Source of the DNA: Symbiodinium sp. CCMP2592
Lineage: Eukaryota; Sar; Dinophyceae; Suessiales; Symbiodiniaceae
Assembly (NCBI GenBank): GCA_905221615.1
Contig: CAJNDT010002890.1
Span: 1,138,001 to 1,202,000 of the forward strand
Direction of reading: 5' to 3'
Length of the DNA stretch: 64,000 nt
This document shows positions 50,494 through 62,961 of this stretch, in pieces (position 1 is the stretch's first letter; every line of letters begins with the position of its first letter). Made by a program: the position numbers and the translations under genes. Under the pieces are notes generated by a model. It made no database searches, was not told where the DNA came from, and saw nothing but the letters and a program-made list of their open reading frames with translations.

Positions 50494-50520
50494 GTCTACT
50501 ATAGGGGCCTTAATGATTAG

Positions 50521-50699
50521 TCTTTTCGAGGAGTTACCGGGGAAGGGCCTTTAGAAGAACCTGGCTACCTAAGCTTTGGACTCTAGGCTCAACCCTGAAC
50601 TTACACCCCGAAAGCACGCAACAACTTTATATACGCTGAGCAAAAAAGGCCTGCATGTGCGTGTCATCATGCGCAGGGGCTCATGCTGAATCTCCAACA
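50521..50699 (-). repeat. 3' LTR of the copia element
   Basis: This 179-bp direct copy of the right LTR shows no differences by eye. It is preceded, in element orientation, by the polypurine tract and followed by the target duplication ATTAG at 50516-50520. It should supply the polyadenylation signal. A canonical AATAAA is not obvious, which is unsurprising for a dinoflagellate. Confidence 0.95.
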
Positions 50700-51095: not shown

Positions 51096-54000
51096 TCACC
51101 CTCCCCTGCGGCGTCGAAGTCCAGTAGGGAGATTGGTATGGAAGACCGTGCGGCCAACCACACAATCACTGCACGGAAGCAGTGATGAATGATCCCGGTT
51201 TCGGAGATGGTAGCACTCGGGATTTTGATGCCAGTGGGAGCCGCTGGAGGTAGAGTGGCTCACCAGGTCAATTGGGTGACGGTAGGTAGCTGCAGGAGCA
51301 GCTGGAAGAACAGGAGGAAGAGGAGCGTAGTCCTCAGGATTGGTATTCACTCCGATGGATCGAAGATTCGAAGTGGATCTAGAAGATAAGGAGGCTCCAC
51401 CGGGAAGTCGAGCACCGATGGAGGAGGACGAATCCCTGGGAAGTCGAGCACCAGGGACTGGCAACTGTGTGGAAGAGGAAGGCGGGGTGCTTGCGGCAGG
51501 CTGCTGCGTGGTCCCAGAATCGGGCGAGGAATGCACATCCAGAACCCCGGGAAATCGAGCACCGAGGCCTGGGAACACGTACGCAACTACGCCTAAGAAC
51601 CTCCTAAGGAATGACCTAAAACCCTCGTAGGCTAAGATCACAACCGTAAGGTACACTATAACCCAACCCCAACCCTCAGGCTCAGGAGAGCCTTGCCCTT
51701 TCAGAAGCAGGGCACAGCATGCCAGCACTGCAGCTAGCCGCAACCTACAATCCTCAGACGGATTCTTAACCCCTAAAAACGGCAACATGTCGCCGAACTT
51801 TGAGGCTGTCATCGCCTTTGTAAGGATGTCGGCGGGCATCAGCAAGCCGCTTAAGTGATAAACCGTCCAAACACCATTTTCGATCCTTTCACGTAGGGCA
51901 TGGGACCTAAGTCTTAAGTGGCGGGATCTCCAGGAAGTTGGGGGGCCGCTTACAATGCTTATTGCTGAAGAATTATCTCCGAAGAGGGATCGAGTAAGGG
52001 GCTCTGGAAAGATCTCCCCAATCAAGGCCTCAACAGCTTCAGCTGCTTGCGCAACACAGACGTAGCTGATCAGCTCGCTCTCAGCGGTTGACAGAGCAGT
52101 CAGCGTCTGGCGGCCAGATTCCCAGTGGAGCGGAGCTCCAGCCCAGCACACTAGCAGACCCTGGTGGGATCTGCCTGAACTTGGCCCAAAAGAGGCGTCT
52201 GCAAAAGCATGCAACGTCGTTTCAACGACGGGCCTCGGATACTGTTGAGAGGCCCCACAGTCTCCAGGAGGAGGGCCATACACAATGCACTGGGAGGGTG
52301 AAGAATTCAAGAAACGCAACACTCCCTGCCCAATGCTTAGCGCATCCTTTGGCCTCTTGGTGGTCAACTGTGCCATGCGGCTGACTGGAAAAGACAGCTC
52401 GGGGCGCGCTCGAACTGAGAGCCACAGTAGCTCACCAGTTATGCTTTGAGCGGCCTTAACCGCTTCCGGATCAACCGGGTCATCACGGCTTTCGCCATCA
52501 TCGAAGTTGGCTGACCACGCGGCACATGGAGACTTGGCACTCCCCTGCACGTTGTGCCTCTTCAAGAGTTCCTTGATGTACTTGGTCTGCCCAATCAAGA
52601 GACCATCAGCAGACTCCGAAATCTCAAGACCGCAATATTCAACTGGGCCATCTTCAGTATGCGTAAATGCGCTGCACTCCCATGTGGCCTTGATTTTTTC
52701 AAGAAGAGCAGATCGCTCCGACCAGGGTCCCAACACTAGGAGGTCATCGACATACCAACACATCAAGGCAACAGTCTCGCCGCAAGGGGACTTGACGAGC
52801 CAAATGTTGGGGTCCGCAACGCACTGTTGCAAGCGGCGGTTCTCGCCATCAACGGTCCAGGTCAGGACTCTGCAGGTTTTGTCCCGGAGGCGGGACCAAG
52901 CACGAGGGGAGGTCTGGAGTCCATAAAGAGCACCGTGGACTCTCCACTTGTAGCCCCTCGGGATAACTCCCGCGGCATACAGCACCTTAGGTGGATTGCA
53001 GATCAGATACTCTGCCTCCTGCTCATCAAGAGGAGCGTTGAGGAAGGCAGTCTTGACATCAGTTCCTGAACCACCATGCTTCCTCATGCCCGCCCATCTC
53101 AAGGCAGTGCGGATCGAAAGAGAATCCGCTCCTCCGGCATAGAAGGACTCTGCCGCCCTTTCCTCGGACCACTTTTGAAAATTGCCGCAAATTACAGCTC
53201 TATACTTATTTCTCTTAGTGGATCCGGGAGCTACAGGGGGCTTTTCAGTGGCAACACCCCGGCCGGGGAGGATCTCTACATCTTCACCATCTAAAATCCA
53301 TTTTTCAACTTGACTATCTGCCACAAGCTCAACAGCACCCTTCGAAATCAAGGAATCGCACTCTGCTTTCATGGCATCACGCCATTCATGCAGTTTCTCA
53401 CGGACTTCCTCATTCGAGACGATGCGGGTATGCAGCAAGGGCTGAGACTCAAGATGTTCTGCTGCAGGGGCAGCGGCACACACCCTCCACGAGGAGGAAC
53501 TGACAGGCTCATCGCAGCCATACAGGCGCGCAAGTTCTAGATGCCAGCCCAACTCATTTCGAAGGGAGGAAGCTTCGCGCATCGCCTGCAAGGTGATAGG
53601 GTCAACTGGGCCTTCGGAAGAAGCGCCCACAACAGATCGTTGCAGTGACTTCAAGAAATGCGTCACTGCTTGGTGCATCTGCTCATATCCCTGAGTCACC
53701 TGACTCCAAGATTCCTCTGCCGGGAGGTCTGCTTCCTCTTCACCTGAGTCATACTCATCTGGAAGCAACTTCGACACACCGTCTCCAGGAGAGGGTTCTC
53801 CGATGACGGAAGACGACGACAGAGGCTCAAGGTCCTGGATTGGCATATTCACCCATCTCAAGCTTAGAAGATCCGAAGAAGTTAACTTTTCAAGAGATCT
53901 AGGGGTGTAGCCCAAAACCAGGATTTTATCTCCTTCCCAACTTCCAGACTTATGGAGATCACGCGGGGGGAAACTAAGCCAGGCATTTGGCGGAAGAGGC

Positions 54001-57000
54001 ATCTCATGGCCACGGACCTCAAGAGAACCTGAGCCTTGCCCGACATTCCAAACCACATTCATTGACTCAAGGGAATTGTGAGAGTCCCGATGAATCTCTG
54101 ACTCAATGTTGACGACAAAGCCAACGGAGGCAAAGCAATGCCCAGTGCGGTGGAAGAGGCTCACAGCAAGAAGGCGAGTGAGCCACGGGCACTCATGCAC
54201 CGTATTGGTGATTCCAACCTTAGCACTGAAAACCCAAGCCCCGGAAGACCAGAACCAAGGAGGGAGCGTTGCTCCTGAAGCTTCATCTTTCTGGTTCCCG
54301 GCAAGAGGGCGCTTCGCGATCCGATTGATCGCTTTCTTATCTTGAACGTACAAACGGATAGCATTTGCAAGCTGACCCGTGGAAACGGAGTTTCCTTCAA
54401 GAAGCACCTGCTTGCAGAAGGTCTCACACGGAGAGAACGCTTCTGTTGCCGACGGGGAACCACCAGAGCTAGAGAAGAGCCGAGCAACACGAAAGGCAGG
54501 CCCAGCATCAGGGTCCCGACGCGGAGAACGATCTCTCCTGTTCTCAAAGGGCGGAGGCCCTTGGGGATTGGGAACTGGGTTGCGACCGGTCTCTTCAGAA
54601 GAGCGAAACCGATCTTGCCATATCATGTTACTTTCGATCAGAAACCACTGAGGAGGTTGGCCATATCGGATGGCCCGGTAAAGGTAGGCGCGACGATTGG
54701 GTTCGTCTTCAAAGTCGACGACCCTTTCGGTTTCTACGACACCAAGGAGGTCAAGCTCGTACTCAGTGTTCTGATCATTCAAGCCACCGGGCTGATACCC
54801 AAACACATAGGGCACAGGAGCATTGGTATGCCGGTGATCCCAAATCATACGCACCTCAGGCATGGCGGTCCAATTTCGACCCCGAAGAACAAACAGTCCG
54901 ATCATAAAGGCATGTTCGGGGTTGTGCATGGTGTGAACCAAACAGCCAAAGTTTTGCAGATCGAGCTCATTCCAGCCATTGGCTGGTTCGTCGACTGGAC
55001 GACCGCGTTGGAGTCGTTCTGCTTCCCGATCACTCAGCACTGCATACCGGCGGTCCCATCGCGGAGTTGGGACATTCACATCCGCTCTATCATTATGATC
55101 AAGTTTTTTCAACCAAAAGTCATACATCGACGGGGCGGGGGCTTCAGGCACCGTGGAAGTGGCTGTTCCTAAGGCGATGGCTTTAACCCTTTCAGGGACA
55201 TCATAGCCACCCGCACTTTCAGGATTATCCTCTAACCAACGGGCTATCATAGCTCCAACCACAATCCAGCCAACCTTAGGCTCAAGAGCGTTGGGAAGCA
55301 TACGGCCTCCTCGTTGCTCGGACTGGAAACCCCGAATTGCATAATGCAACGTTTTTTCAAGATCATCATCATTCTCAAGAACTTCCACACAGCCCTGCAG
55401 CCCAATCTGAATGATATAAGGGCTCAGCGGTGCACCTGACTGGAGCATGTGGCATAAAGGATTGCTGGGAGGATCAATGGTCCATTCAGCGATGCTAGAT
55501 TGCAGGGTGGAGTAAGTATCCACAGTGGAGGTGTTCCCAGAACTAGAAGACACCGGGCCCGTTGCTGACACATCCAGCGATCCTGAAGAAAAGCTGGACA
55601 CCGAACCAGACGGGTCTGAGACCGCAGGAGCTTCAGCAGGCATGGGTGACGAGTAGCCTTGGCCGGGACGGTCGGCAGCACTCGAGGTCTCAGCAAGCAT
55701 TGGTGGCGGATAGCCTTGGCTAGATGAAGCGCTGTAGGACCCTGAGGCACTGGAGGCCTCGTCCTTCACTCGGAATGCCCGAATATGAGGCGGGTCAATG
55801 GGACCAGGCACAGCTAAGGGACTGGGTGGCTCCTGTTCAAAGAGTCGCAAAACTACAACCCGAATCTCAGAGGTCCGAAAGTCCCTTATGGTGAAGGCAA
55901 CTAGCCTATCCCCAAATGCGCTATCATCAGCATACCAGCCATCATCATCATGGTGCTGAAGAACCTCAAACAAAGGGGCCCGGCGGCCATCGGCATCTTG
56001 ATATTCCATGGTGGGATAGCGATCCCAGCGGTGATTTCTCAAGGTACCCCGAAGAAGGAGGAAGGGGATTTCGGTATCCCCATCAACAGGATCACCAGGA
56101 TCCAAGAAGCGGGTAAGGTCCGACATCTGACGTTCAAATTCCTCCTCTTCAAGATAACACACCGCTGCCCACTGCTCAGGAGACATGTAGGCAAAGGAGA
56201 CCTGAAGCACGCGGCGGTTGATGCCTTGCACATTTCTGCCACCAGGGGCTGGATTGGCCTCAGGCATACGCTGTGGGTTCGGACCCACAAACCTTAGAAC
56301 CCGATGCCCACAAGGCTCCCCCGGGCTTCTTGAGCCCTCGCCCAAATTGGTAGGCGGCACTCCCGGAGCGTCATCCGCTTCACGGGTTTCTGCAATCTCC
56401 CCCGGGCTCTCTGAACATGAGTCTTCTCCGGATTCCCTTCTATCCTCAGAAGAAAAAACCTCATCAGACGCAGCTGGATCTTCACAGACACCTTGCAAGG
56501 TCGAGAACTCCTGCTGGGGAACTTCCGGCATCCCAGCTGTCTTTGGATCGTCAGACGAATCTGACAAGAAGTCAACCGGCCCATCCGAACCAGCTTTCAA
56601 GGAATCCTCAGACTCAGAAAAACTCCGACGGGAAAATTCGCCCGAACCGTAAAAATCCGAAAAATCTGCTATGGCACTCATCCCCCCCGCAGCAGGAAGA
56701 GAAGGGCCTTGCAACGTGACCCGAACAGAAGGGCCCTTGGAGCCGTGACGGTAGTGGGGCATCGGCAAAAACGCACCTGTGCTTGAACCCGACAAGGGCT
56801 TCGGCCTAAGAGGAGGCTCAGCAGGCTCAGACGGAGGGCGCGGCCGGTAATCAACAGGATACACCGCCGACGTAATGCACACCGTGTCATCCTCAAACAG
56901 CACAAGGTACGAAGACAAGGTCTGCGGAGCCGGGCCAATCAGGACTCCAGACCGAGTTCGGGACATCCAAACATCCCTGTGGCGAAGGCGCTTGCGAGCC

Positions 57001-60000
57001 TCAACAGGCGTGCCGTAAGCCAGCAAAGACCTGGCCGCACCACCCAAACGAACAAGGCCCTTACGCCACATCACTTCTCCGGCATGTCTCACTGCCGTGG
57101 GCCAGTGGCACGAAGGCAGATTCGCCGAAAGAAGAGCTCTGCGGGCCGCTCGCTTGACTTCTCGAATCGCGACCTCAGCGGCGCCGTTTGAGGGATGATC
57201 CTCAGGGGCTGTCCTTGTGGAGTGAATGCCCTGCTCGGCTAGAAACCTTTCAAGCGAATCACTCAAGTATTCCCGAGCCCTGTCGCTATGGAAGCGAAAG
57301 CACGGAATGCCAAACGCTCGGAGGCGGGCAACAGCACGCATGATTGCAAGCTGCACATTGAAGGACTGGCGGGTCTTCAGCGGTTCAGCCCACACCAGAG
57401 TCACAAACTCTTGACCATCATCAGAGTCACTGCCCTCAGGCTGAAGCGGCGGAGGCTTGTGAGGAGATTTAACCTCAAAGCTCACAGGAAGAGCTGAGTC
57501 ATCATCCTCACCCGGCGTGGAAGAAACCCCAACGGCCGAGCTTGGCTCTTCAAGAAAGTCATCCCCAAGCTTTGTGTACACCTTAACCCGAGAAGGCTGC
57601 TCAGCATCCCCCCTTAAGGGCTCTCCGGTAACATGCACCGGCTGGTAGATCAAGCTTGCATGGGGATCCTCCTTATCCTGGGCCTTAGCCTCATCAACCT
57701 TTTCTTGGAAAGCTATTTCAGAAGACTTATCCCGCCACTCCTTCTTATCACTTCTGACCGGCACCCTTATTGTGAAAATCACAAAATACCTGCATGCTCC
57801 TCCAAAGTCACGGCCCTTGTGGTACGGACCCGCAACATCGCTGGAGAGCTCAAACAGATGCGGATGCTTCGTGAAGTGGGAGCGATCGCGGGAAGCTCCT
57901 TGAATGCAAATTGGGCAATCATTGCGATACGGCAAATGATCTGCTTGGCAGTGCCTTTCCCAAACCTCGGGTGACATCTTCGCCACAGTGGCTTCCTGGC
58001 ACAAGTTGAGAAGGAGTCCTTCCCGCTCACGGGTGTGAGCCTGCAAGCGCTCAAAGCTGACACAGCAGTAGTCATCCCAGGCCCGCAGAACCCGGCTAAC
58101 AAGCCCGGGAGCCCACTCCTTGCCGTAGAAGTTAGAAGCCGGGGCTTCAATCACCTCTGGAGGAAGCTTCAGCTCGTGAAGAGACTCATACAGCTGAAAG
58201 CTGCTGGTATACACGACAGTGGCCTTAGAGCAGGGGTGGCCAAGAGTGCCCTGGTCGAAGCTGGCGGTCCATCCCCCCAGACACACAGAAACATTCTCAT
58301 ACTCGGGCCATTCCCACGCAGTGGAAGTCTCAGGCATTTCCAAGCAGTTGAAGAACTTCTCTTTGGCACACGAGGCCACAAAGGTCAACAGCAGAGACCG
58401 GAGGAACAACAGGGTGTCCCGATCAACCAAAGCACGATCGGACGGGCTGAGGTCTGAAAACCCAAACCTATCATCCCCTTCTTCCCCTCGGAACTTCAAG
58501 CCATTAGAGGAGGACGCCAGGGCTTCAGGATTGAAGGTCCTGCTTGGCGGGCCACATACGACCCCATCGATGACACCCAGGGTGGCTGCCCGCAGCAGCA
58601 TGCCAAACACATCATCAGAAAGAAGGTCCGATCCCCTGGAGATATCAACCTCAAGCACTTGGCCGACAGAATGTCGCCACCGCTGCTTTCCAGCAAACAG
58701 ATGCACCAAGGTTGGGACCTGAGGGTCAAACAGCTGTCTCCTGGTCCGGCGGTTGAAGGGAACGCAGGAGGGATCAAAGGTGGGACTCACCGCAACCTGA
58801 GACGCTAACCCTTCTGGGAGCCCAGGAAAGAGGGTCTTAACGATCAGCTGCAGCTCACTTTCGCTGCACGAATCTGCCGCCACATGGGCTGCAACCCACT
58901 CCCTTAGGGACGAAAGCCCAACCTCCTCCTGGCCAACTGATCGCTGCCAAAGCTGTTGCGATACGGCCCTTGAGGTCTCACGGCGCAAGAGGAAGCGCTC
59001 ATACTCGCCAATCAGGCGGAGCACCAGAAACTCTGGCAACTCAGGAGTGCCATCCTTGAGTCTCACCGGGAGGATCCCGAGACCTGGATGCCGCACGTGA
59101 ATGCCCCGGTCAGTCCAGTTGATCTCACAGCCCAAAAGCGGCAACGCATGCATCGGCAAGATTGGCTGCACTGACTCCCTGACCAACAAAGTCCCGGCGG
59201 AGTTCACATGCATCAGAGCCTCGCCGACCGCGAGAGACACGCTCACCGGGCGGGACTCCTGGATTTCCTGAGGCGATGCCTGGCGGAGAGAAGCGGAGGC
59301 CCCGCTATCCAACAAGCCGTAGCCCGTCGGGTTGCTCACAGCACTAAGCCGCAAGGCCTTGGTCTTGATCGACCTTAGCACACTCAAGATCTCTGCATTG
59401 ATGGCTGCATTGCCATCCCCCTGACTCGGAGCTGCAGCCTCTGCCTGGTCATTCGCGGTCCCAGCAGGCGCGGTTTGAGGGTCTACGGTAGCAACCTTAG
59501 GTTTACCCCCAGGCTTGCCTTCCTTGCCCTTACCTTCCTTAGCCTTACCCTTCGCCTTACCCTTAGGAGAGGAATCGGCAGGGGCCTTTGGTGTCTTAGG
59601 GCTAGTGGAAGGGGACTCCTCATTGGCAGCCTTAGCCTCCGCCTTTAACCTGGCTTTCACCGGGCATGAGTCCGCCCAGTGATCTTCGGCACTGCAACAG
59701 AAGCATCGGCCCCGCATCTTTTCTTCATCCTGGTCGTGGTAGAACTGACAGGACGACCCGTACGTGCAACCGCCAGCCGTTAGCCAGCTTCTGCAAGGTT
59801 TCATACCTGCACCCGGCGACTTGGGTCCCGCTGGAGAAGTCTTGGCCTTCGGGGTACTTGGAGACGTCTGCAAGCGCTGCAAGCGCTGCTTCTTAGCATC
59901 ATCCCCTCGGCCTGGAACCTCATCCTTCACAGGATTGTCATCTGTGGAGTGCATCAGGTGCTCCACCTCCGCCTGCATCATTCGACACAACTCCGACACA

Positions 60001-62528
60001 GCGTCGGAGGTCGGCTGGTAGTCAACCCCAAGCCGCTCACGGAAGGTGGCAAGTCGGAAAAGGCTCGCGGAGTGCTTCTGCAACACCTTTCCTGTCAGGA
60101 CATCTAAACCCTTAACCAGAAGCGTGGTGTCAGGCTCTGCTGCGTGCAGTTGCTTCAGGCGCATACGCCATTGGGTCCACTGCCTCAGCAGCTTTGCAGC
60201 CTCCGACAAAGTGGAAGCAGCCTTCGGCGTCACCAAAAAACGCAACATGGTTGATCGTTCTGACGCTCCCCCGGGCTGAAACACCGTCATCAGACGAAAG
60301 ATCTTTCCTGCCACACTCAGGTGGCGTGAGGCGACAATGTCAACCCTCACAGCATCCGGGATTGCCTGAAGAATCAAGGTCACGCATCGCTGTTCCAGCA
60401 AGGCATGCTGGGGCTGCACCAAATTTACCTGATCAAACTCCTTCTGGATCGACAGCCTTTCAAGCGGGGAAGTGGAGAGCCACCGCACGTAGGCCTGGTT
60501 GGCCGCCTGGTATGTATAACCCCACCAGACACTTCCGGTGTCTGACAGTGAAGAAATCATCGGCTGGACCACTGCGATCCAATCTCCAAGCGCGGTGGGG
60601 TTGTTAGGGTTGTAGGCCTCTAGGGACGGTAGGGAACTTACATGTTTACCCACAGCTTCAGGCCTAAGGTCCTTAACATCAACCCGACCACTATTTCCAA
60701 CCGGCGGGGCAGCTATGGGAAGACTTAAACCCGAAGGGGCCGGTGGGCTCGGAGGTGGAGTGGACGATGGAGGCCTCGGAGGAGGCGATTGGTATCGAGG
60801 CATTGCCGCTCCCGCGCAGGAGGAGACAGCATGGCAGGATGGCACTGGAAGTTGTGCTCCAAACGCAGGATGCTTCGGAGGAGATGGACTGTTGCTCCAC
60901 GCCCCAGAAGTGGGCGGAGCTGCGACCAAGGGCGAAGTCCACTGCGGAGGAGGAGGAGGAACGAAGTCCACAGGCTCTAAAACCAACGAACCATTAACCA
61001 CCTTCCAGCTATGATTAACTCCCATAACCCTTATCACCCCAGACGAAGTCGGCAACTGGGCACGGGGAGACAGAGCGAAGTACTGAGGTCCAGCACCCGC
61101 AGCAGAATGAAGTCCAAAGTCCATCGAAGGAACCTCGGAAGGAGAAACGGGATTGGGAATCCCTGAAGAGGATTGGACTCCTGGGGGCCCTGTAAAAGAG
61201 TGAAGTCCAAAGTCCATAGACGGAACCTCAGAAGGCGAAAGGGTGGCCCCAGGAGCACTCGTAGTTGAAGTCAAAGGCACCATGTCCCCGGGAAAAGCCA
61301 TCGGGGAGTGAACAGATGGGCCAAAATCCATATCGAGGGAGGACTGACGTGGAGGCTCCTGACCCAAGACAAGGTCGTGAGTGGAATGAAGGGGATCCGA
61401 AACATTCCAAGAAGACCACCCCTCAGAGGCGAAAGGAGGCAGAGGTGGCACCGGGGGCAAAGGATAACCCTCCTCAGACTGAAAGTTTACCCTTTGGCCC
61501 TTGAGCTCTAGTTCCTCTACCCTACGCCCAGAAGAGGCCGACCCAAAAGATCTGGATCCTCTCGTACTACGTTCAGCCTCAGCTTTCTCTAGCCTATCAT
61601 GAAGATGCTCAACCAAAGACCGTAGTCTAACGATTTCGAAATGTTGCTCTGAGGGATCCGGGATCTCGTAGGCCGAACTCTTCTGGGACCTCTGGGCTTC
61701 CGGAGACAGAGGGATAGACCTCCTTGCTGCGTCTTCACTGACGCTCTCAGCCCTTTCGTTCCCTAATCTCGCGCTACCGGTTTCTAGTTCGAAGTGAGAC
61801 CTGTTCGGAACCCTTTCTTCTGAAACGCCTTCCCCGACAGTTGTGGAAACTCTCGGAATCCCAAGGCTAGCTGCTGAAGTTCCTGGAAGTTGCCCAGGCG
61901 ATCCTGAAGCTCCCACAACTCTCGGTCCCAGCACTCCAGAATTCAAAGAGTCCCGAACTTGATTCAAGCCAGCAGGATCCTCATTCGTCAGCTTGGGCGC
62001 TGCTTGTCTTCCCAGCTCTCGATCAGACGTTTCCCGCAGTTCCACTGGATCTTCATCATTCCAAATCGTTACTTTCGTAGCATCATTCAAGAGGCTTGGG
62101 GTTGGCTCAAACTTCATGGGAGACATAGACATCCAGTCCATAGGTTCACCCTCTCTGATAGGCCCAGGTTTCCCAGAACGCATCTTTAGACCAGGGTTGG
62201 TCGCCTGTCCACTGGCAGCCTGAACCACATCTGAAGTTCTCCCTGTCTCACCATTTCCCGAGCCTTCTGTAGGAAGTCCCTTCCCCTTCCCTCCAGACCC
62301 CAACTCATAGTCAGGCTCCAGAACATCATCGTCTACTCGAACCTCGGGAAGCTTCTTGGCCCCATCAAGCCCTTGAGGTCTCGCCTTCTGAAGCTCAACC
62401 TCTGCCTTGGCCTTGTCCGACCAGAAGGGGTGCGCTGTCGGCGAGGTCTCCTCCGTAGCCAAGGCAGTCTCCTGTTCCTGATCCCTGGCATCAGGATCTT
62501 GCCGTCGGCGGCGCATGGAGGGGTCCAT
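51096..62528 (-). CDS. Giant Gag-Pol polyprotein of copia type, 3,810 aa
   Basis: This single uninterrupted frame starts with ATG 167 nt after the 5' LTR. Domains in order: a proline/serine-rich N-terminus with a short coiled coil (about residues 300-330); a gag-like helical region (about 630-860); a CCCH finger (C912, C921, C927, H931) and a CCHC knuckle (C942, C945, H950, C955); a retropepsin with D1074-S-G-A; an HHCC site (H1526, H1531, C1538, C1541) and integrase core D1564, D1749, E1785, in which D and E are separated by exactly 35 residues; a long spacer with a dioxygenase-like domain (H2813, D2815, H2859, R2877); a copia reverse transcriptase with D3157 and YVDD at 3259-3262; RNase H with D3444, E3483, D3518, D3567; and a 240-residue tail with two hydrophobic stretches. 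All catalytic residues I looked for are present. Gag and pol share one frame, so processing must be proteolytic. Typical copia polyproteins are about 1,300-1,500 aa. Confidence 0.95.
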   Translation of the reverse strand: MDPSMRRRRQDPDARDQEQETALATEETSPTAHPFWSDKAKAEVELQKARPQGLDGAKKLPEVRVDDDVLEPDYELGSGGKGKGLPTEGSGNGETGRTSDVVQAASGQATNPGLKMRSGKPGPIREGEPMDWMSMSPMKFEPTPSLLNDATKVTIWNDEDPVELRETSDRELGRQAAPKLTNEDPAGLNQVRDSLNSGVLGPRVVGASGSPGQLPGTSAASLGIPRVSTTVGEGVSEERVPNRSHFELETGSARLGNERAESVSEDAARRSIPLSPEAQRSQKSSAYEIPDPSEQHFEIVRLRSLVEHLHDRLEKAEAERSTRGSRSFGSASSGRRVEELELKGQRVNFQSEEGYPLPPVPPLPPFASEGWSSWNVSDPLHSTHDLVLGQEPPRQSSLDMDFGPSVHSPMAFPGDMVPLTSTTSAPGATLSPSEVPSMDFGLHSFTGPPGVQSSSGIPNPVSPSEVPSMDFGLHSAAGAGPQYFALSPRAQLPTSSGVIRVMGVNHSWKVVNGSLVLEPVDFVPPPPPQWTSPLVAAPPTSGAWSNSPSPPKHPAFGAQLPVPSCHAVSSCAGAAMPRYQSPPPRPPSSTPPPSPPAPSGLSLPIAAPPVGNSGRVDVKDLRPEAVGKHVSSLPSLEAYNPNNPTALGDWIAVVQPMISSLSDTGSVWWGYTYQAANQAYVRWLSTSPLERLSIQKEFDQVNLVQPQHALLEQRCVTLILQAIPDAVRVDIVASRHLSVAGKIFRLMTVFQPGGASERSTMLRFLVTPKAASTLSEAAKLLRQWTQWRMRLKQLHAAEPDTTLLVKGLDVLTGKVLQKHSASLFRLATFRERLGVDYQPTSDAVSELCRMMQAEVEHLMHSTDDNPVKDEVPGRGDDAKKQRLQRLQTSPSTPKAKTSPAGPKSPGAGMKPCRSWLTAGGCTYGSSCQFYHDQDEEKMRGRCFCCSAEDHWADSCPVKARLKAEAKAANEESPSTSPKTPKAPADSSPKGKAKGKAKEGKGKEGKPGGKPKVATVDPQTAPAGTANDQAEAAAPSQGDGNAAINAEILSVLRSIKTKALRLSAVSNPTGYGLLDSGASASLRQASPQEIQESRPVSVSLAVGEALMHVNSAGTLLVRESVQPILPMHALPLLGCEINWTDRGIHVRHPGLGILPVRLKDGTPELPEFLVLRLIGEYERFLLRRETSRAVSQQLWQRSVGQEEVGLSSLREWVAAHVAADSCSESELQLIVKTLFPGLPEGLASQVAVSPTFDPSCVPFNRRTRRQLFDPQVPTLVHLFAGKQRWRHSVGQVLEVDISRGSDLLSDDVFGMLLRAATLGVIDGVVCGPPSRTFNPEALASSSNGLKFRGEEGDDRFGFSDLSPSDRALVDRDTLLFLRSLLLTFVASCAKEKFFNCLEMPETSTAWEWPEYENVSVCLGGWTASFDQGTLGHPCSKATVVYTSSFQLYESLHELKLPPEVIEAPASNFYGKEWAPGLVSRVLRAWDDYCCVSFERLQAHTREREGLLLNLCQEATVAKMSPEVWERHCQADHLPYRNDCPICIQGASRDRSHFTKHPHLFELSSDVAGPYHKGRDFGGACRYFVIFTIRVPVRSDKKEWRDKSSEIAFQEKVDEAKAQDKEDPHASLIYQPVHVTGEPLRGDAEQPSRVKVYTKLGDDFLEEPSSAVGVSSTPGEDDDSALPVSFEVKSPHKPPPLQPEGSDSDDGQEFVTLVWAEPLKTRQSFNVQLAIMRAVARLRAFGIPCFRFHSDRAREYLSDSLERFLAEQGIHSTRTAPEDHPSNGAAEVAIREVKRAARRALLSANLPSCHWPTAVRHAGEVMWRKGLVRLGGAARSLLAYGTPVEARKRLRHRDVWMSRTRSGVLIGPAPQTLSSYLVLFEDDTVCITSAVYPVDYRPRPPSEPAEPPLRPKPLSGSSTGAFLPMPHYRHGSKGPSVRVTLQGPSLPAAGGMSAIADFSDFYGSGEFSRRSFSESEDSLKAGSDGPVDFLSDSSDDPKTAGMPEVPQQEFSTLQGVCEDPAASDEVFSSEDRRESGEDSCSESPGEIAETREADDAPGVPPTNLGEGSRSPGEPCGHRVLRFVGPNPQRMPEANPAPGGRNVQGINRRVLQVSFAYMSPEQWAAVCYLEEEEFERQMSDLTRFLDPGDPVDGDTEIPFLLLRGTLRNHRWDRYPTMEYQDADGRRAPLFEVLQHHDDDGWYADDSAFGDRLVAFTIRDFRTSEIRVVVLRLFEQEPPSPLAVPGPIDPPHIRAFRVKDEASSASGSYSASSSQGYPPPMLAETSSAADRPGQGYSSPMPAEAPAVSDPSGSVSSFSSGSLDVSATGPVSSSSGNTSTVDTYSTLQSSIAEWTIDPPSNPLCHMLQSGAPLSPYIIQIGLQGCVEVLENDDDLEKTLHYAIRGFQSEQRGGRMLPNALEPKVGWIVVGAMIARWLEDNPESAGGYDVPERVKAIALGTATSTVPEAPAPSMYDFWLKKLDHNDRADVNVPTPRWDRRYAVLSDREAERLQRGRPVDEPANGWNELDLQNFGCLVHTMHNPEHAFMIGLFVLRGRNWTAMPEVRMIWDHRHTNAPVPYVFGYQPGGLNDQNTEYELDLLGVVETERVVDFEDEPNRRAYLYRAIRYGQPPQWFLIESNMIWQDRFRSSEETGRNPVPNPQGPPPFENRRDRSPRRDPDAGPAFRVARLFSSSGGSPSATEAFSPCETFCKQVLLEGNSVSTGQLANAIRLYVQDKKAINRIAKRPLAGNQKDEASGATLPPWFWSSGAWVFSAKVGITNTVHECPWLTRLLAVSLFHRTGHCFASVGFVVNIESEIHRDSHNSLESMNVVWNVGQGSGSLEVRGHEMPLPPNAWLSFPPRDLHKSGSWEGDKILVLGYTPRSLEKLTSSDLLSLRWVNMPIQDLEPLSSSSVIGEPSPGDGVSKLLPDEYDSGEEEADLPAEESWSQVTQGYEQMHQAVTHFLKSLQRSVVGASSEGPVDPITLQAMREASSLRNELGWHLELARLYGCDEPVSSSSWRVCAAAPAAEHLESQPLLHTRIVSNEEVREKLHEWRDAMKAECDSLISKGAVELVADSQVEKWILDGEDVEILPGRGVATEKPPVAPGSTKRNKYRAVICGNFQKWSEERAAESFYAGGADSLSIRTALRWAGMRKHGGSGTDVKTAFLNAPLDEQEAEYLICNPPKVLYAAGVIPRGYKWRVHGALYGLQTSPRAWSRLRDKTCRVLTWTVDGENRRLQQCVADPNIWLVKSPCGETVALMCWYVDDLLVLGPWSERSALLEKIKATWECSAFTHTEDGPVEYCGLEISESADGLLIGQTKYIKELLKRHNVQGSAKSPCAAWSANFDDGESRDDPVDPEAVKAAQSITGELLWLSVRARPELSFPVSRMAQLTTKRPKDALSIGQGVLRFLNSSPSQCIVYGPPPGDCGASQQYPRPVVETTLHAFADASFGPSSGRSHQGLLVCWAGAPLHWESGRQTLTALSTAESELISYVCVAQAAEAVEALIGEIFPEPLTRSLFGDNSSAISIVSGPPTSWRSRHLRLRSHALRERIENGVWTVYHLSGLLMPADILTKAMTASKFGDMLPFLGVKNPSEDCRLRLAAVLACCALLLKGQGSPEPEGWGWVIVYLTVVILAYEGFRSFLRRFLGVVAYVFPGLGARFPGVLDVHSSPDSGTTQQPAASTPPSSSTQLPVPGARLPRDSSSSIGARLPGGASLSSRSTSNLRSIGVNTNPEDYAPLPPVLPAAPAATYRHPIDLVSHSTSSGSHWHQNPECYHLRNRDHSSLLPCSDCVVGRTVFHTNLPTGLRRRRGG
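51099..51761 (-). other. C-terminal extension with two hydrophobic segments
   Basis: Residues about 3590-3810 follow RNase H. Two membrane-like segments (about 3595-3610 and 3618-3636) are followed by a basic stretch, a serine/proline-rich region with repeated G-A-R-L-P units, and a cysteine/histidine cluster near the end (H-x-N-P-E-C-Y-H, then C-S-D-C). The protein finishes with L-R-R-R-R-G-G. Copia polyproteins normally end soon after RNase H. An envelope-like or membrane-targeting role is possible, but nothing here identifies one. Confidence 0.7.
51819..52211 (-). other. Copia-type RNase H
   Basis: Residues about 3440-3570 have catalytic D3444 (A-D-A-S), E3483 (S-T-A-E-S-E-L), D3518 (G-D-N-S-S-A) and D3567 (P-A-D-I-L-T-K), the standard order for copia RNase H, which degrades the RNA of the hybrid during reverse transcription. 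Confidence 0.93.
52719..53399 (-). other. Copia-type reverse transcriptase
   Basis: Residues about 3044-3270 match the RVT_2 layout: an entry helix with W-R-D-A-M-K-A-E, the basic K-Y-R-A-V-I-C-G segment, the first catalytic aspartate D3157 in T-D-V-K-T-A-F-L-N, the Y-G-L-Q-T-S-P-R-A-W block and the YVDD box at 3259-3262. All three metal-binding aspartates are present. Confidence 0.95.
53859..54311 (-). other. 2OG-Fe(II) dioxygenase-like domain in the polyprotein
   Basis: Residues about 2750-2890 show the iron and 2-oxoglutarate ligand pattern of the double-stranded beta-helix dioxygenases: H2813-x-D2815, distal H2859 and R2877 eighteen residues later in a Y-T-P-R context. The first ligands sit in HRDSHN, an HxDxHN motif like that of the TET/JBP DNA-base oxidases. 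Around them alternate hydrophobic strands and a glycine-rich turn. A W-F-W-S-S-G-A-W-V-F segment precedes the domain. Target (DNA, RNA or protein) and activity are unknown; a structural relic is possible. The fold assignment is inference from motif order and spacing. Confidence 0.55.
54282..56860 (-). other. Unclassified spacer between integrase and dioxygenase-like domain
   Basis: Residues about 1890-2750 join integrase to the dioxygenase-like domain. Serine/proline/acid-rich linkers alternate with stretches that look folded. One (about 2130-2270) is rich in aromatic and acidic residues, with F-L-L-L-R-G-T and Y-A-D-D-S-A-F-G-D. Another (about 2370-2680) has many W, Y and H residues. I recognise no family in them. 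In ordinary copia elements this gap is a short disordered linker. Confidence 0.6.
56861..57953 (-). other. Integrase (HHCC zinc site plus DD35E core)
   Basis: H1526-x4-H1531-x6-C1538-x2-C1541 is the zinc-binding pre-integrase motif. The RNase-H-fold core follows: D1564 in S-D-V-A-G-P, D1749 in H-S-D-R-A-R-E and E1785 in N-G-A-A-E, with 35 residues between the last two. The gap between the first and second aspartate is long (185 residues) because of an acidic, proline-rich insertion of roughly 120 residues. The catalytic triad is complete. Confidence 0.9.
59049..59345 (-). other. Aspartic protease domain
   Basis: Residues about 1062-1160 contain L-L-D-S-G-A with catalytic D1074, typical of retropepsins, which act as homodimers. 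A hydrophobic segment ending in a conserved-looking glycine region follows. It should release gag, integrase and reverse transcriptase from the polyprotein. Confidence 0.85.
59664..59795 (-). other. Tandem CCCH plus CCHC zinc fingers (nucleocapsid part)
   Basis: Residues 912-931 form C-x8-C-x5-C-x3-H, a CCCH finger of the type common in RNA-binding proteins. Ten residues later 942-955 form C-x2-C-x4-H-x4-C, the classical retroviral zinc knuckle. A knuckle alone is normal in copia gag. The CCCH finger in front of it is an unusual addition and probably also contacts RNA. Confidence 0.85.
59934..60641 (-). other. Gag-like region of the polyprotein
   Basis: Residues about 630-865 are mostly helical-looking and tryptophan-containing. 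They begin near Y639-N-P-N-N and run to a glutamate-rich helix before the basic, lysine-rich segment that leads to the zinc fingers. Position and composition fit a copia gag core that forms the particle shell. The assignment rests on location and pattern, not on a named motif. Confidence 0.6.
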
Positions 62529-62695: not shown

Positions 62696-62874
62696 TCTTT
62701 TCGAGGAGTTACCGGGGAAGGGCCTTTAGAAGAACCTGGCTACCTAAGCTTTGGACTCTAGGCTCAACCCTGAACTTACACCCCGAAAGCACGCAACAAC
62801 TTTATATACGCTGAGCAAAAAAGGCCTGCATGTGCGTGTCATCATGCGCAGGGGCTCATGCTGAATCTCCAACA
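62696..62874 (-). repeat. 5' LTR of the copia element
   Basis: This 179-bp copy is identical to 50521-50699. On the minus strand it starts TGTTGGAGATTC and ends CGAAAAGA. It carries a TATA-like GTATATAAAG (plus-strand 62810-62819), and a run of six T lies just upstream of that in the transcription direction. As the upstream LTR it should carry the promoter. R/U5 boundaries cannot be fixed from sequence alone. Confidence 0.95.
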
Positions 62875-62961
62875 ATTAGAATAGGGTTTTGGGGTATACT
62901 ATACTCTAATTCTAATAAGGACCCCCCAAAATAGTATAAGTGTAACGAGTTTCATGCGCAG

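Follow-up and report, generated by a model that had tools for sequence, protein, structure and literature searches.

It is already known that retroelements can capture modifying enzymes, namely DNA methyltransferases (DNMT) in the long interspersed nuclear elements (LINE) and DIRS elements of dinoflagellates, and AlkB-type oxygenases in the Gypsy elements of orchids. For Symbiodinium, expression in yeast of the DNMT carried by its LINE and DIRS retrotransposons gave de novo CG methylation, and the abundant Copia elements are said there to have no DNMT domain (PMC5890265). The orchid enzyme is an N6-methyladenosine (m6A) RNA demethylase, active in vitro and encoded by an additional open reading frame (ORF) (PMC9289625). 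In fungi, TET/JBP genes, mostly undisrupted, are found in Kyakuja, Dileera, Zisupton, hAT, EnSpm, Helitron and other elements, the carriers all being DNA transposons or Helitrons (PMC12730594); a 2025 fungal survey found no TET/JBP-bearing retrotransposon. Here we describe a stretch of 64,000 nucleotides from the coral-symbiont alga Symbiodinium sp. CCMP2592 (contig CAJNDT010002890.1, positions 1,138,001 to 1,202,000; hereafter the window), in which a copia long terminal repeat (LTR) retrotransposon carries a predicted TET/JBP-like 2-oxoglutarate (2OG)-Fe(II) oxygenase domain inside its polyprotein. It would share with the fungal transposons the presence of a TET/JBP-type gene on a mobile element, with the Symbiodinium DNMT elements the capture of a DNA-base-modifying enzyme by a dinoflagellate retroelement, and with the orchid elements the capture of a 2OG oxygenase by an LTR retrotransposon, but it differs from each of them, as the enzyme is a putative oxygenase rather than a methyltransferase, is probably not of the AlkB type, and lies within the polyprotein of a copia rather than a Gypsy element. 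Among the matches listed, no dinoflagellate retrotransposon with a TET/JBP or 2OG oxygenase domain was found in the open-licence PMC literature.

An earlier note on this DNA had proposed a dioxygenase-like domain at 53859..54311, which corresponds to minus-strand residues 2740-2890 of a frame of 3,810 amino acids (aa). H2813, D2815, H2859 and R2877, the four ligands it named, are all present at those positions in the one uninterrupted frame (Table 1). The structure prediction, one of two tests named beforehand as able to refute the proposal, neither of which did so, returned for residues 2698-2899 an AlphaFold2 model of high confidence (predicted local distance difference test, pLDDT, 91.6; predicted template modelling score, pTM, 0.89), whose strand-rich fold, with a predicted double-stranded beta-helix core, matches solved 2OG oxygenases. 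CcTet, NgTet1 and AlkB are among the Foldseek and VIA-align 2 matches of this model, a family missing from the VIA-align list not being treated as excluded; TET enzymes score best, with AlkB relatives tied (CcTet 11.3, ALKBH5 10.9), and the model of a second family member gives 12.5 for NgTet1 against 11.4 in the TET/JBP-versus-AlkB comparison. Identity to the solved TETs in structural alignment is 12-15%. The models support a 2OG-Fe(II) oxygenase-type fold, nearest to or tied with TET/JBP.

CcTet has His326, Asp328 and His376 as its iron ligands, Arg385 as its 2OG anchor and Phe391 (TET2 Tyr1902) as the residue on which the base stacks, with TET2 Asn1387 bonding the amino group of 5-methylcytosine (5mC) (PMC11040006). 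Judged by spacing, the equivalent CcTet and TET2 site residues would be H2813, D2815, H2859, K2868, Y2874 and N2818. As in CcTet, the putative anchor lies at H+9 (H376 to R385 in CcTet) and an aromatic residue at anchor+6 (F391), and as in TET2 an Asn stands at D+3, so that N2818 and Y2874 would occupy the positions of the base-contacting Asn and Tyr of TET2. The likeness to the TET/JBP family (PF12851; CcTet, NgTet1, TET2, JBP1/2) extends to the predicted fold, the HxD...H triad and a basic residue starting the last strand, in a comparison made with solved TETs. Unlike the TETs, the domain has Lys instead of Arg at the anchor, sits within a copia polyprotein, and has Pro (P2876) at anchor+8, where CcTet has Arg393 and TET2 has His1904. 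While N2818 and Y2874 fit the TET pocket, P2876 does not, and therefore base recognition must differ in part.

Conservation was counted over 41 near-full-length family members, the partial carriers P0013, P0015 and P0057 being omitted from the 44 described below. The iron-ligand positions hold His in 37 (H2813), Asp in 38 (D2815) and His in 39 (H2859), and that of N2818 holds Asn in 37. Despite the great divergence of the family, these four are among the 13 most conserved columns of the core, with ligand-less members counted. The proposed triad is thus conserved beyond chance, and most of the sister elements surveyed retain the metal ligands; HxDxHN as an invariant whole did not hold, since many members have HxD-R-N or HxD-x-x-N. 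Nor did R2877 hold up as the 2OG ligand, being Arg in 23 of the 41 and lying beyond the end of the last predicted strand (2869-2874); K2868, by contrast, stands just before that strand at a position with Arg in 28 members, Lys in 9, Leu in 3 and Ser in 1. On this alignment and on the model, the anchor is probably K2868, not R2877. In four members (P0023, P0034, P0097, P0107) the domain is retained with one or more iron ligands absent; these may be inactive, perhaps non-catalytic or partly deleted. The hand-picked structure alignments A3 and A4 (22 and 12 rows) are without these four, which biases their invariant columns but not the 41-row counts.

The same pattern is seen among genomic copies. 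In all 18 other close copies (at least 91% identity), H, D, N, H, K, Y and R are all kept and the 264-residue stretch is free of stops. Among 21 more distant or partial genomic matches, H is kept in 20, and D and N in all 21; for the 19 extending into the C-terminal half, the second His and the aromatic residue are kept in 19, the +9 position is Arg in 17 and Gln in 2, and the R2877 position is Arg in 16, so that this residue is non-random, though probably not the anchor. Against four divergent close copies, the ratio of nonsynonymous to synonymous substitution rates (dN/dS) is 0.063-0.093 for the core (2755-2885), 0.036-0.092 for the upstream segment and 0.19-0.26 for the downstream linker. 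The core is thus under purifying selection, constrained more than the downstream linker but not more than the upstream segment, which includes two predicted helices.

At the level of sequence, the window domain alone has no significant match in Pfam, NCBIfam, PHROGs or the PDB. With a 22-member profile, TET2 is among only five PDB sequences at E <=10, at a non-significant E of 0.52 and ranked under two unrelated chains, in an alignment that sets HrDshN opposite HRDLHN and the +9 residue opposite a TET2 Arg. The Pfam family Tet_JBP (PF12851) matches two of the 22 members, at E 4.2e-6 (profile positions 67-115) and E 5.8e-5 (73-161 of 164), neither of which reaches the curated cut-off of 34.9 bits; the best sister copia domain reaches 26.5 bits, the best genomic match 29.6, and the window domain is unmatched. 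Because the scores fall under the cut-off, the domain is named TET/JBP-like and not a PF12851 member. Across the whole host genome there are 30 Tet_JBP matches, all under the cut-off, and in 14 control genomes there are none; nothing above the cut-off, such as a canonical host TET exon, was found, though introns could conceal one. Ten of the 30 were tested, including one (L049) with the domain split across two frames; every one is picked up by the copia-trained profile (E 1.8e-31 or better), and within about 2-3.3 kb around them there is no match to copia reverse transcriptase, integrase or RNase H. Other matches were taken as chance, namely single-member Pfam matches to DUF746 (E 0.009), Exotox-A_bind (0.029), SAICAR_synt (0.056) and three weaker ones, as well as the PHROGs match of one member to phrog_274 'DNA endonuclease V' (E 0.00035).

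The earlier suspicion that the domain is widespread was borne out. A hidden Markov model (HMM) seeded with the window domain and close relatives was iterated over 112 polyproteins, which are no census but the result of a search with the reverse transcriptase region (E <=1e-10; about 1,100-3,500 aa, resembling that of the window), and it finds the domain in 44 of them at E below 1e-10. P0095 and some weak members joined the profile during iteration, so that their own final E-values are self-reinforced; the first round, before distant members joined, gave 36 of 112 below 1e-3, and the values before inclusion were 1.2e-5 for P0095, 0.0062 for P0057 and 0.00036 for P0013, with the best reversed-sequence control at E 0.3. 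Of the 44 carriers, 43 have the domain on the N-terminal side of the reverse transcriptase, and in 35 of the 36 with a recognisable integrase it lies between integrase and reverse transcriptase. The exception is P0095 (residues 2436-2705), the sole carrier with the domain after the reverse transcriptase and also the most divergent, at 14% identity to the window. Integrase and reverse transcriptase are a median of 684 aa apart in 35 carriers and 354 aa apart in 49 non-carriers, with overlap (three carriers below 540 aa, six non-carriers above 560 aa). Distances between domains correlate with those between reverse transcriptases (r 0.76; 0 of 2000 permutations as high in a Mantel test on the 33 distinct carriers left once near-copies were removed), as expected if the domain has mostly been passed down with its element. 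On a tree of 102 reverse transcriptases, a quick tree with long branches that was not used for dating the gain, carriers and non-carriers are clustered yet spread across several deep clades (7 changes versus a shuffled mean of 27). Six sequences within carrier clades were scored as non-carriers, four with short integrase to reverse transcriptase gaps that are perhaps gene-model errors (P0018, P0055, P0058, P0074; 62-220 aa) and two with long ones (P0043, P0076; 562 and 650 aa).

The 1.1-Gb host assembly contains at least 144 matches to the domain, a lower bound from scoring 145 of 1,984 candidates, and 19 copies, that of the window included, are at least 91% identical across all 264 residues. 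Near-intact sister copies exist, as 5 of the 18 others hold the domain in an open frame of more than 3,000 aa. Among annotated proteins, the nearest over residues 2680-2943 are RE2 (100% identity) and RE1 (98%), both from Symbiodinium sp. CCMP2592; next come Symbiodinium sp. KB8 and S. microadriaticum, whose proteins are about 57% identical across most of that region. No relative was found in viral contigs searched with the reverse transcriptase, nor in phages searched with one sister domain. These data support the view that the domain is widespread in dinoflagellate copia elements.

Taken with the predicted fold and the residue pattern, we consider it likely that the domain is an active TET/JBP-like Fe(II)/2OG dioxygenase that serves its element, and its retention for catalysis in a large group of dinoflagellate copia elements, between integrase and reverse transcriptase, is the best explanation. 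The strongest competitor, still an unlikely one, is an AlkB-type nucleic-acid demethylase that would strip m6A or other methyl marks from the RNA of the element. The structures of AlkB, ALKBH5 and FTO are tied with TETs for the window model, and the orchid Gypsy elements offer a precedent with in vitro demethylase activity (PMC9289625); the AlkB family (2OG-FeII_Oxy_2) is absent from the Pfam matches of the 22 members, though the filters remove weak matches. It is less probable that a captured oxygenase fold persists without catalysis, as a part of the polyprotein that binds nucleic acid or has a structural role, for while captured modules are tolerated in polyprotein linkers and 4 of 41 members keep the domain without ligands, the rank of the four proposed active-site residues among the most conserved columns fits catalysis, and the core has a lower dN/dS than its downstream flank. 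Slightly further down stands a 2OG protein side-chain hydroxylase of the prolyl-hydroxylase type, acting on Gag, Pol or a host protein. The H+9 spacing occurs in prolyl hydroxylases too, Foldseek lists a prolyl hydroxylase for the first model and both AspH and proline hydroxylases for the second, and one member weakly matches 2OG-FeII_Oxy_3 (E 0.017), but this match is weaker than those to Tet_JBP and the top structural matches are nucleic-acid oxygenases. A chance motif in a low-complexity linker, compatible with the lack of a direct family match for the window sequence, is refuted by the confident predicted fold, the conserved relatives and the genomic matches, with reversed controls as given above, and deserves next to no credence.

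The host element is complete, with two identical 179-bp LTRs and a 5-bp target-site duplication (Table 1). These features, the order of integrase before reverse transcriptase and the RVT_2 match place it in Ty1/copia, the rve match being weak (E 0.07). With its LTRs identical and its frame intact, the element is likely to have inserted recently.

Table 1. Features of the copia element and of its oxygenase-like domain, in window positions.
Feature	Position	Strand	Evidence or remark
LTR, 179 bp	50521..50699	.	100% identical to other LTR; outer flank ATTAG at 50516-50520
LTR, 179 bp	62696..62874	.	100% identical partner; outer flank ATTAG at 62875-62879
Copia polyprotein, 3,810 aa, single open frame	51096..62528	-	uninterrupted
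CCCH zinc finger, residues 909-933	59730..59804	-	PF00642, E 1.2e-5, 25.5 bits, cut-off 20.5
Second conserved module, residues about 1255-1480	58089-58766	-	just upstream of integrase
Integrase region, residues about 1520-1800	57129..57971	-	seed segment; Pfam rve core 1713-1776 weak, E 0.07
Predicted TET/JBP-like 2OG-Fe(II) oxygenase domain, residues 2698-2899	53832..54437	-	AlphaFold2 model, Foldseek and VIA-align 2 matches, family of relatives
Strand-rich domain core, residues 2755-2885	53874-54266	-	preceded by two N-terminal helices
HRDSHN: H2813 and D2815, proposed iron ligands; N2818, positional equivalent of TET2 N1387	54075..54092	-	family conservation, TET2 alignment
H2859, proposed distal iron ligand	53952..53954	-	kept in 39/41 members
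K2868, proposed 2OG anchor, H2859+9, last-strand start	53925..53927	-	R/K in 37/41; aligned with TET2 Arg
Y2874, proposed base-stacking aromatic, K2868+6	53907..53909	-	Y/F in 36/41, H/W in 5
R2877, earlier-proposed 2OG ligand, unsupported as anchor	53898..53900	-	R in 23/41; after last strand
Copia reverse transcriptase, residues 3107-3329	52542..53210	-	PF07727 (RVT_2), E 3.2e-8

The second conserved module of the polyprotein is present in 65 of the 112 relatives, 28 with the oxygenase domain and 37 without. Motifs in it such as LVHLFSG and GGPPCRTxS (GPPS instead of GPPC in the lineage of the window) resemble motifs I and IV of C5-cytosine methyltransferases; the window segment has no Pfam match, and four whole relatives have no methyltransferase match. 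The domain also occurs in a second type of retroelement, at two of the ten tested loci, L058 (2438-6262) and L059 (2571-6401). Each has an ORF of 1,274-1,276 aa with the oxygenase domain at its start, which Tet_JBP matches at E 7.6e-6 over profile positions 73-162 of 164 in L058 and at E 5.8e-5 over positions 75-162 in L059; further along the ORF, RVT_1 matches weakly (E 0.012 in L058, 0.005 in L059). Between these two parts, L058 has an APPCGT motif, which likewise recalls a methyltransferase. The adjoining ORF has no Pfam match, be it to a tyrosine recombinase or to anything else. The order of domains resembles that of the DNMT-bearing DIRS elements of Symbiodinium (PMC5890265).

As to what an active TET/JBP-like domain would do, we place first, at roughly even odds, the narrower proposal that it oxidises a 5-methylpyrimidine in the element's own DNA. 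A processed Pol product would act alongside reverse transcriptase and integrase and oxidise the methyl group at position 5 of a pyrimidine in the nucleic acid of the element. Either thymine would be converted into 5-hydroxymethyluracil, the new cDNA then resembling host DNA, or 5mC would be converted into 5-hydroxymethylcytosine, undoing a silencing mark; the proposed Asn could face cytosine or thymine. CpG depletion, compared as a measure of methylation exposure (0.68 versus 0.63), does not discriminate. The two versions seem about equal. Thymine is given a slight edge in view of the CG methylation published for Symbiodinium, which is homogeneous and shows no relation to transcription; CH methylation is concentrated there on transposable elements (PMC5890265). 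In Breviolum, according to a 2024 map, 5-hydroxymethyluracil is enriched on most repeats, and neither 'JBP' nor 'dioxygenase' appears in its main text (PMC11071213). An improbable extension is that the 5-hydroxymethyluracil of dinoflagellates, enriched on repeats, is largely written by retrotransposon TET/JBP-like domains that hydroxylate their own new DNA to pass as host, the odd base chemistry of the host having been acquired from mobile elements.

A retrotransposon with its own base-oxidising enzyme would bring a new weapon to the conflict between element and host. It makes testable the question of what writes 5-hydroxymethyluracil in dinoflagellates, where elements of this kind may themselves chemically mark or unmark DNA.

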